DNA of 64,000 nt from Synechocystis sp. PCC 7509 (GTDB taxonomy: Bacteria > Cyanobacteriota > Cyanobacteriia > Cyanobacteriales > Chroococcidiopsidaceae): positions 2,244,324 to 2,308,323 of the forward strand of contig NZ_ALVU02000001.1 of the NCBI RefSeq assembly GCF_000332075.2, read 5' to 3'. A model generated the notes under the pieces. That model saw only the letters and a program-made list of their open reading frames with translations. It made no database searches and was not told where the DNA came from. The translations under genes were made by a program, and so were the position numbers. Positions within the stretch are counted from its first letter, which is position 1. Each line of letters opens with the position of its first letter. Positions 4,530-8,954 of this stretch are shown piece by piece.

Positions 4530-4937
4530 GTGACTTATAAAAAGGTAAAGAATCTAAAAGCGGAAGATTTTAAACGCTTGACTGGAGTGCATTTAGACAT
4601 CTTTAATCAAAGGGTAGAAATAGTCAAGCAAGCGGAAAAATCACGAAAGAAACCTGGCAGACCACCAAAATTAAGGATCGAAGACCAAATTTTAATGCTC
4701 TTAGAATATTTACGAGAGTATAGAACTTTTTTTCATTTAGGTGCTACTTGGGGAGTAAATGAGTCCACAGCCTACCGAATTATTCAGAAAATTGAAAACA
4801 TTTTAATCAAAGCTCCTCAACTAAGACTACCAGGAAAAAAAAGATTAATCGCCGATGATTGTCCGCTAGAAACCGTAGTAATAGATGTAAGCGAAACTCC
4901 CATAGAAAGACCTAAAAAAACAAAAAACCTATTATAG
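4530..4937 (+). CDS. IS transposase, upstream frame (N-terminal part)
   Basis: A 135-residue frame from a GTG start. Residues 40-100 form the HTH_Tnp_4-type DNA-binding domain (GRPPKLRIEDQILMLLEYL, then ATWGVNESTAYRIIQKIE). It continues through the first catalytic aspartate in VVIDVSETPIERPKK and stops at 4935-4937. The next part of the same protein lies in the +1 frame. The break follows two A-runs (seven and six As) at about 4914-4927, so either a base was lost here or the full enzyme is made by frameshifting or transcript slippage. Confidence 0.8.
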   Translation: MTYKKVKNLKAEDFKRLTGVHLDIFNQRVEIVKQAEKSRKKPGRPPKLRIEDQILMLLEYLREYRTFFHLGATWGVNESTAYRIIQKIENILIKAPQLRLPGKKRLIADDCPLETVVIDVSETPIERPKKTKNLL

Positions 4938-5367
4938 CGGCAAGAAAAAAAGACATACGTTGAAAGCCCAAGTGATTATTGACCAAAAGAATGGGCAAAT
5001 ACTATGTACCGCTTATGGCAAAGGGAGAGAGCAGGATTTCAAGTTATATAAAAGAAGTAAAATAAGAATTAGAAAAAAGGTTAGATGTTTAGCAGATAAG
5101 GGATACCAAGGAATTAAGAAGCATCATCATTTCAGTCAAACACCTAAAAAGAAACCAAAAAAAAGTAAGCTTTCTGTAGCAGAGATAAAAGAGAATAGAA
5201 AGTTAGCTAAAAAGAGAATAATTATTGAGAATATTTTTGCCCATTTAAAAAGATTTAAAATTTTACAAGGGCGATATAGAAATAGAAGAAAAAGATTTGG
5301 ATTAAGGTTTAATTTAATAGCTTCTATTTATAATTACGAGCTTAAATTAAATGAAAATCAATCTTAA
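4930..5367 (+). CDS. IS transposase, downstream frame (catalytic C-terminal part)
   Basis: This frame continues the transposase: from 4930 it reads YYSGKKKRHTLKAQVIID, which directly follows the ERPKK motif of the upstream frame in intact DDE_Tnp_4 proteins. The second catalytic aspartate is in CLADKGYQG and the glutamate in IIIENIFAHLKRFK, so the DDE triad is complete across the two frames. The first ATG-like start (TTG at 4960) is not expected to be used independently. C-terminus ends beside the right inverted repeat. Confidence 0.8.
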   Translation, partial: YYSGKKKRHTLKAQVIIDQKNGQILCTAYGKGREQDFKLYKRSKIRIRKKVRCLADKGYQGIKKHHHFSQTPKKKPKKSKLSVAEIKENRKLAKKRIIIENIFAHLKRFKILQGRYRNRRKRFGLRFNLIASIYNYELKLNENQS

Positions 5368-6489: not shown

Positions 6490-7374
6490 ATGGCAAAACT
6501 ATATAGTAGGACGAGGTGGGATAATGAGGAAGTTACCGCCTGGATTTTTTTAACTCCCGCACTGATATTTTTGGGTGTATTTCTCCTTTACCCGATCGCT
6601 TATTTGTTTTACCTTAGCTTTACTGCGGGTAGTTTTACATCTTCTGGTATTAAATGGATAGGTTTAAGAAACTATTGGCGTTTGCTAGTTACCCCCGATT
6701 TTTGGCAAGTTTTAGGAAATACTGCTTATTTCACCATTGCGACAGTAATTCCTAGTTTAATAATTCCTTTAGGATTAGCCGTACTATTAAATCGTTCTAT
6801 CAGCTTACGCGGACTATTACGCAGTGCCTATTTTTTGCCTTCAATAACTTCTCTTGTGGCGGCTGGTTTGGGATTTCGTTGGCTGTTTCAAACGGAAGGC
6901 GCGGTTAATGGACTATTAAATGTATTTGGATTTACGCCAATTTCTTGGCTGAGTAGTACAGTTTGGGCGATGCCTGTATTGATTTTATTAAGTATTTGGA
7001 AACAAATAGGTTTTAATATGGTGGTATTTTTGGCGGGGTTGCAAGCAATTCCGCCTAGTCGTTACGAAGCGGCGGAACTAGATGGCGCAAATGGTTGGCA
7101 GCAATTTCGGCATATTACTATACCTGGATTGCGCCCAACAATTGTTTTTGCGGCGATTACTACAGCAATTTTTACGTTACGGAGTTTTGAACAAGTATAT
7201 GTAATTACTGGCGGTGGCCCGTTAAATACTACTAACTTGCTGGTGTACTATATTTACGGGGAAGCTTTTGGGCAATTTGATTTTGGTTATGCGGCAGCAG
7301 CAGCTACAGTGTTACTTGCGATCGCATTTATTCTCGTATACCTGCAATTGCAAACTTGGGAAGAAGATACTTAA
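6490..7374 (+). CDS. Sugar ABC transporter permease (MalF/UgpA type)
   Basis: A 294-residue inner-membrane permease with six hydrophobic segments, the first near residues 18-40. The cytoplasmic EAA loop that docks on the ATPase is clear: YEAAELDGANGWQQFRHITI near residue 195. The family imports mono/oligosaccharides or glycerol-phosphate type solutes together with a second permease, a periplasmic binding protein and an ATPase. None of these partners is adjacent, so it is an orphan subunit here; in cyanobacteria such genes are frequently scattered. Its 3' end overlaps the rhodopsin gene by four bases. Confidence 0.88.
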   Translation: MAKLYSRTRWDNEEVTAWIFLTPALIFLGVFLLYPIAYLFYLSFTAGSFTSSGIKWIGLRNYWRLLVTPDFWQVLGNTAYFTIATVIPSLIIPLGLAVLLNRSISLRGLLRSAYFLPSITSLVAAGLGFRWLFQTEGAVNGLLNVFGFTPISWLSSTVWAMPVLILLSIWKQIGFNMVVFLAGLQAIPPSRYEAAELDGANGWQQFRHITIPGLRPTIVFAAITTAIFTLRSFEQVYVITGGGPLNTTNLLVYYIYGEAFGQFDFGYAAAAATVLLAIAFILVYLQLQTWEEDT

Positions 7375-8075
7375 ATAGTTGACGATTCGTAGCTAGATAC
7401 GGATTCTGTGTTTTTCTCTAAGGTGTGCATAGAGTTTAATGATAAAAACCCAAAGCCAACTTTGGAAGTTATATCTAGTATGGTATAAAACATCGTCTCT
7501 GTACCTTGATTAACGGCGTTAAACCCAGTATTACCAAGCAGCCAAACGATCGGGTAAAGCGTCCACAATACTAAATGCACTGATAACAATTTACGAAACA
7601 CTTTTTTAGCTTGGGGATAGTTGCGTTCCGCTTGTTTGCGATATTGATTGACTAATAAATAAACCGTAGCCAAAAAAGCAAAGCAGCTAACAACATACCA
7701 AATATGCCCAATAGTTCTATCGGCGGAAATAGTCGCTACAAAACCTGTAGCAATCATATAAGCGTTAGCACCGAGCAAACTTGCGGTAATTGGTAAACTA
7801 GTTTTACCCAAAAAAGTTAAGTCAAGAATTAATAGCGGTGTGGACAAAAACCAAGTAATGTATCTTACCCAAACCGTAGGACGACCAGCAATAACGCTTC
7901 TACCTTGACCTAACGCCATTGATAAATATAAACCAGTGGCGATCGCACAAATAAAGAAATTAATTGTAAATAGTATCTTCCACCGCTCATTTTTGGCATT
8001 GTGCGCGCCGATTCCAAAAAAGATCGATCCCAGCGCCATCCCAATTACACCAATCCACAGCCAAATCTGAGCCAT
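7371..8075 (-). CDS. Microbial rhodopsin, TSD-motif light-driven anion pump (cyanobacterial halorhodopsin)
   Basis: A 234-residue seven-helix retinal protein. Helix C reads VRYITWFLSTPLLILDL: Arg71, Thr74, Ser78 and Asp85 occupy the positions of Arg82, Asp85, Thr89 and Asp96 of bacteriorhodopsin, giving the TSD motif. Helix F has WTLYPIVWLLG and helix G has ILDITSKVGFG, with counter-ion Asp201 and the retinal Schiff-base Lys205. TSD is the motif of the Mastigocladopsis repens halorhodopsin and relatives, which pump chloride inward; the residue numbers of the motif also agree with that protein. Anion selectivity here is inferred. Neighbours give no retinal-synthesis gene. It converges with the sugar permease gene. 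Confidence 0.92.
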   Translation of the reverse strand: MAQIWLWIGVIGMALGSIFFGIGAHNAKNERWKILFTINFFICAIATGLYLSMALGQGRSVIAGRPTVWVRYITWFLSTPLLILDLTFLGKTSLPITASLLGANAYMIATGFVATISADRTIGHIWYVVSCFAFLATVYLLVNQYRKQAERNYPQAKKVFRKLLSVHLVLWTLYPIVWLLGNTGFNAVNQGTETMFYTILDITSKVGFGFLSLNSMHTLEKNTESVSSYESSTI

Positions 8076-8156: not shown

Positions 8157-8954
8157 CTATAAGTTGCCAAGTAAACTTGCTGAATCTGAATCTAAAAATA
8201 ATGTTGCTTGACTGTGCTGGCGTAAAATGGAAGCTGGACAAGTTGGAGAAATAGGAAGTCGCAACATATTCTTGACGGCTATAGCTTTCCGCTTTTCTGG
8301 CGCGAGACAGAGGATCTTTCTACTCTGGCAAATCTGGCGAATTGTGAGAGTAAAAGCATATTGCGGTACGTCTTCAACGCTAAGAAAATGTCCTTCGCCT
8401 ACTTGTTGCTGCCGAGTTGCTGGTTCTAGCTTTACTAATTTTATCTGCCTAGTTTCGTCGAAAGATGCTACCGATGGTTCGTTAAAAGCTAAGTGTCCGT
8501 TTTCACCAATTCCTAGAAAACATAGATCGATAGGTTGGGTTTGTAATAATTGACTATAGCGATCGCATTCTGCTAATGGTTCTACGGCATCGCCTTCTAT
8601 ATAATGAAAATCAACCGCATTTATGCGTTTTTCAACGTTTTTGTGTAAATAATAGCGAAAACTAGCCGGATGTTGGGGGCTAATTCCCAAATATTCATCA
8701 AGATGAAAAAATACAACCCGCGACCAATCTACACCACCCAAAGCAATTAGCGCCTCTAGAAACTTTAGTTGAGAGTTACCTGTTGCTAAAATCACCCTTG
8801 CTTGATTCTGGGTTTTTAGTAGAGATGATAAATAATTTTGGGCTATTTTTGCTGCATCATCCGTTAAAGTAGTTGAGCCGCATAGTCGTACTGTTAAATT
8901 ATCAACTTGAAAGTTTTTAACAGGTGCGTGCAAAGAAGTTGTAAGTTCAAACAT
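8157..8954 (-). CDS. nagB: Glucosamine-6-phosphate deaminase / 6-phosphogluconolactonase family protein
   Basis: A 265-residue protein of the NagB family, which converts glucosamine-6-phosphate to fructose-6-phosphate and ammonia. Motifs include ILATGNSQLKFLEAL near residue 58, VVFFHLDEYLGI with the catalytic Asp, and the signature GIGENGHLAFNEP near residue 150. These are closer to deaminases than to 6-phosphogluconolactonases, which lack the GENGH-AFNEP block. It is a stand-alone gene 81 bp upstream of the rhodopsin on the same strand; no functional link is evident. Confidence 0.88.
   Translation of the reverse strand: MFELTTSLHAPVKNFQVDNLTVRLCGSTTLTDDAAKIAQNYLSSLLKTQNQARVILATGNSQLKFLEALIALGGVDWSRVVFFHLDEYLGISPQHPASFRYYLHKNVEKRINAVDFHYIEGDAVEPLAECDRYSQLLQTQPIDLCFLGIGENGHLAFNEPSVASFDETRQIKLVKLEPATRQQQVGEGHFLSVEDVPQYAFTLTIRQICQSRKILCLAPEKRKAIAVKNMLRLPISPTCPASILRQHSQATLFLDSDSASLLGNL

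Follow-up and report, generated by a model that had tools for sequence, protein, structure and literature searches.

The window analysed here, a stretch of 64,000 nucleotides from Synechocystis sp. PCC 7509, carries the natural gene of SyHR, the halorhodopsin of this organism; transport of a divalent anion has been reported for no other rhodopsin. The open reading frame (ORF) begins with ATG and runs without an internal stop (Table 1), and a search of the PDB matched its product to chain A of 7ZOU (‘Synechocystis halorhodopsin’), with 234 of 234 residues identical (1-234). The Pfam profile Bac_rhodopsin (PF01036) scored 180 bits (E 5.9e-53) against a cut-off of 24.6, and this score together with the complete identity to 7ZOU excludes a chance match. 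No other PF01036 match was found in the genome, which comprises 4,908,825 bases in four contigs.

Translation of the ORF places R71, T74, S78, D85, H167, E193, D201 and K205 in the protein. It has the microbial rhodopsin fold, with K205 as the retinal-binding lysine in helix G, and shows the helix C TSx motif of cyanobacterial halorhodopsins (CyHR) in the form TSD, given in the literature as the ‘TSD motif (Thr74, Ser78, and Asp85)’ (PMC11995866). Residue 85 is Asp instead of the Ala found in the TSA motif of archaeal halorhodopsins, and residue 74 is Thr rather than the Asp acceptor of DTD/DTE proton pumps. A preliminary description of the window, made from the sequence alone, had given the coordinates, the three motif residues, D201, K205 and their numbering, all of which agree with the translation. 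It named SyHR as a protein for comparison only, however, and missed that the window protein is SyHR itself.

The anion-pump function is supported by published experiments because these concern the identical protein, and neither the protein nor its function is new. For SyHR there are crystal structures, measurements of Cl- affinity and of the photocycle, and light-driven inward transport of Cl- and SO4(2-) in E. coli (PMC9617919, PMC11995866, PMC9525653). In the light it pumps Cl- and Br- inward, with movement of SO4(2-) also reported (PMC11995866, PMC9525653); the affinity for Cl- is very high (dissociation constant, Kd, about 0.1 mM; PMC9617919), and SO4(2-) transport depends on basic residues (PMC11995866). 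The light-driven chloride (or sulfate) pump predicted blind from the sequence could therefore be checked against published experiments, and the prediction holds: such pumping has been measured for this exact sequence (PMC9617919, PMC11995866, PMC9525653), and the protein groups with the Mastigocladopsis repens halorhodopsin, MrHR, in our tree. The identity, the key residues and the clade come from the present analysis; the crystal structures, the spectroscopic data and the demonstration of pumping by E. coli cells are taken from the literature.

Collectively, these data make it almost certain that SyHR is a light-powered inward chloride pump, and the protein probably imports sulfate as well. 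In the mechanism that best explains the observations (PMC9617919, PMC11995866, PMC9525653), light isomerises the retinal bound to K205, near whose Schiff base a Cl- is held by T74, S78 and one water molecule. On formation of the O state this Cl- leaves for the cytoplasm, its path probably running past H167, and during O decay a new Cl- is taken up on the outer side by way of a vestibule that leads to R71, the net outcome being inward anion transport. When Cl- is absent SyHR is reported to move SO4(2-) as well; sulfate probably enters once a photon has been absorbed, its passage being permitted by T183, a non-acidic residue at the anion entrance. The exact sulfate route and the role of SyHR in the living cell we infer, and the native cell may use the protein as a second light-capturing pump. 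A source of retinal is plausible, since the genome holds two full-length carotenoid-oxygenase (PF03055) genes elsewhere. The Blh-type retinal enzyme family PF15461 gave no match in this genome, and none in the control genomes either, so that its absence is not established thereby.

In order to place SyHR among its relatives we collected rhodopsins from GTDB representative genomes, from 60 relatives and from 390 genomes of the class, added MrHR, Anabaena sensory rhodopsin (ASR) and one cruxrhodopsin from PDB alignments, and built a maximum-likelihood tree from this set, which holds no archaeal halorhodopsin or xanthorhodopsin references. Thirty-nine sequences with TSx or SSI motifs, SyHR and MrHR included, form one group with moderate support (84/97). 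The archaeal DTD pumps, the ASR-like proteins with DTA and those with NDQ all fall outside it. Several branches outside this group are long and the deep branching order is unsure. The phylogeny proposed as a check in the preliminary description thus puts SyHR with MrHR and away from the sampled archaeal proton pumps and ASR, while its archaeal halorhodopsin and xanthorhodopsin part rests on published trees (PMC9617919, PMC7541481, PMC11528372). The nearest rhodopsins are those of Chlorogloea sp. CCALA 695 (94% identity) and Aliterella atlantica (87%), and R71, H167, E193, D201 and K205 are invariant in all 38 distinct members of the clade.

Outward proton pumping, as by DTD/DTE rhodopsins, would find some encouragement in D85, which occupies the proton-donor position, and in the single change T74D that turns the related MrHR into a proton pump (PMC9617919). 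The proton-acceptor site of SyHR is nevertheless T74 and not Asp, the tree does not place the protein with the archaeal DTD pumps, and anion pumping has been measured, the published pH assays on SyHR already refuting proton pumping. We rejected this explanation, which we consider exceedingly improbable, on motif, tree and published assays. The same three lines of evidence led us to reject a light sensor of the ASR/xenorhodopsin type, for which we see hardly any chance. ASR-like DTA rhodopsins do occur in relatives of the same family, but SyHR has D201 where these have Pro, shares only about 30% identity with them and falls in a separate clade, and its published transport speaks against a sensor.

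The nature of the transported anion deserves closer weighing. SyHR might be a strict chloride or halide pump like MrHR, the sulfate signal being an artefact of trace chloride or of long-range effects. Its very high Cl- affinity is in keeping with this, as is the lack of sulfate inside the ground-state protein in crystals obtained with 2 M ammonium sulfate (PMC9617919). Against it, mutants have led to the proposal that the charge at the anion entrance, set by T183 in SyHR and E182 in MrHR, acts as a sulfate switch (PMC9525653): acidic residues placed at 183 weaken SO4(2-) pumping by SyHR, and E182T raises that of MrHR about 11-fold. The authors of that study took Cl- leakage out of the pH electrode into account as a source of artefact, and the basic-residue dependence of SO4(2-) transport likewise argues for sulfate as a substrate (PMC11995866). 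We therefore regard a strict halide pump as unlikely.

The family has been said to conserve Glu where MrHR has E182, with Thr only in SyHR (PMC9617919). We scored residue 183 in the 38 distinct cyanobacterial members, where the loop between helices F and G aligns without gaps beside a conserved tryptophan and glycine. Thr was found in 29, Ser in two, Ala in two and Glu in five, all five being MrHR-like, and the 33 non-acidic residues span TSL, TSI, TSV, TST and SSI types. This larger sample contradicts the published statement that Glu is conserved and Thr occurs only in SyHR. Parsimony gives two changes for the origin of Glu183, and a single Glu clade is not rejected (approximately unbiased test, p-AU 0.37). 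This survey, modestly new, is our only addition to the known facts. Because residue 183 is mostly non-acidic, permission for sulfate would be the usual state if the switch model (PMC9525653) is right, and we suggest, tentatively and at somewhat less than even chances, that sulfate pumping may be a common condition of cyanobacterial halorhodopsins and no peculiarity of SyHR. Three points call for caution: E182T alone gave MrHR only a modest relative activity of 0.092 (PMC9525653), regions of the protein beyond this site have an influence too, and residue 118 is Pro in most members as against Ala in SyHR. If the suggestion is true, many cyanobacteria could import divalent oxyanions with light, and the survey points to a cheap test of sulfate pumping across cyanobacteria.

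Among the variants of the helix C motif, SSI occurs in two genomes of the same family (L023 and L027) and TST in two others (L067 and L069), neither of which is among the published motifs TSD, TSV, TSL and TSI. Next to the SSI genes lie the same ATP-binding cassette (ABC) transporter permease and purN as beside SyHR, so that these genes seem to represent the orthologous locus, its motif having changed. Plasmid relatives all fall below 60% identity, and those of L043-L046 carry DTD, TTQ, DGN or EGG motifs and no TSx; the TTQ rhodopsin lies on a plasmid of Deinococcus aetherius (L044), is 36% identical to SyHR and has an uncertain place in the tree. ASR-like rhodopsins (DTA, with Pro at the Asp201 site) and rhodopsins with NDQ, the motif of sodium pumps, are present in relatives (L010-L020, L029, L031-L034), most of the same family, and the genome of the window has neither type. 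In three relatives (L025, L035, L036) rhodopsin genes are disrupted by internal stops or by breaks in the frame, which suggests recurrent loss.

The order of permease and purN is also kept in the close relatives Chlorogloea sp. CCALA 695 (L002) and Aliterella (L003). The permease and rhodopsin genes overlap by 4 bp at their ends, and a PF01182 gene lies 81 bp upstream of the rhodopsin gene. The latter neighbour is found beside the rhodopsin in Chlorogloea and was not detected there in Aliterella. We rejected a functional operon on this ground and on the convergent orientation of the permease, and read the arrangement as a conserved position. Scanning for promoters gave no sigma-70-like site and, within the rhodopsin gene, a single weak terminator-like hairpin, a result that carries no information. 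Elsewhere in the window, two adjoining ORFs (4530-5367, plus strand) resemble a split insertion sequence transposase between an AraC-type regulator and purN.

Table 1. SyHR and its adjoining genes in the window.
Feature	Coordinates	Strand	Basis
SyHR, cyanobacterial halorhodopsin, TSD motif, 234 aa	7371..8075	-	ORF, identity to PDB 7ZOU, PF01036, key residues
ABC transporter permease (PF00528), convergent neighbour	6490..7374	+	Profile match; conserved in relatives
Glucosamine-6-phosphate isomerase/6-phosphogluconolactonase family (PF01182), upstream same-strand neighbour	8157..8954	-	Profile match

Compared with known systems, the window protein does not differ from SyHR of the PDB entries 7ZOU, 7ZOV, 7ZOW and 7ZOY at any of its 234 residues. 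MrHR (PDB 6K6I, 6XL3) is 70% identical in the alignment used here, has the TSD motif, belongs to the same clade and shares R71, H167, E193, D201 and K205 (SyHR numbering). It differs in having E182 for T183 of SyHR, and N63 and P118 where SyHR has Ala, and it transports halides but hardly any sulfate (PMC9525653). The archaeal halorhodopsins HsHR and NpHR are likewise inward Cl- pumps with a similar photocycle (PMC9617919), but carry the TSA motif and form a separate clade in the literature. ASR and the xenorhodopsins, present in related cyanobacteria, share the rhodopsin fold but are only about 31% identical, with D at position 74 and P at position 201.
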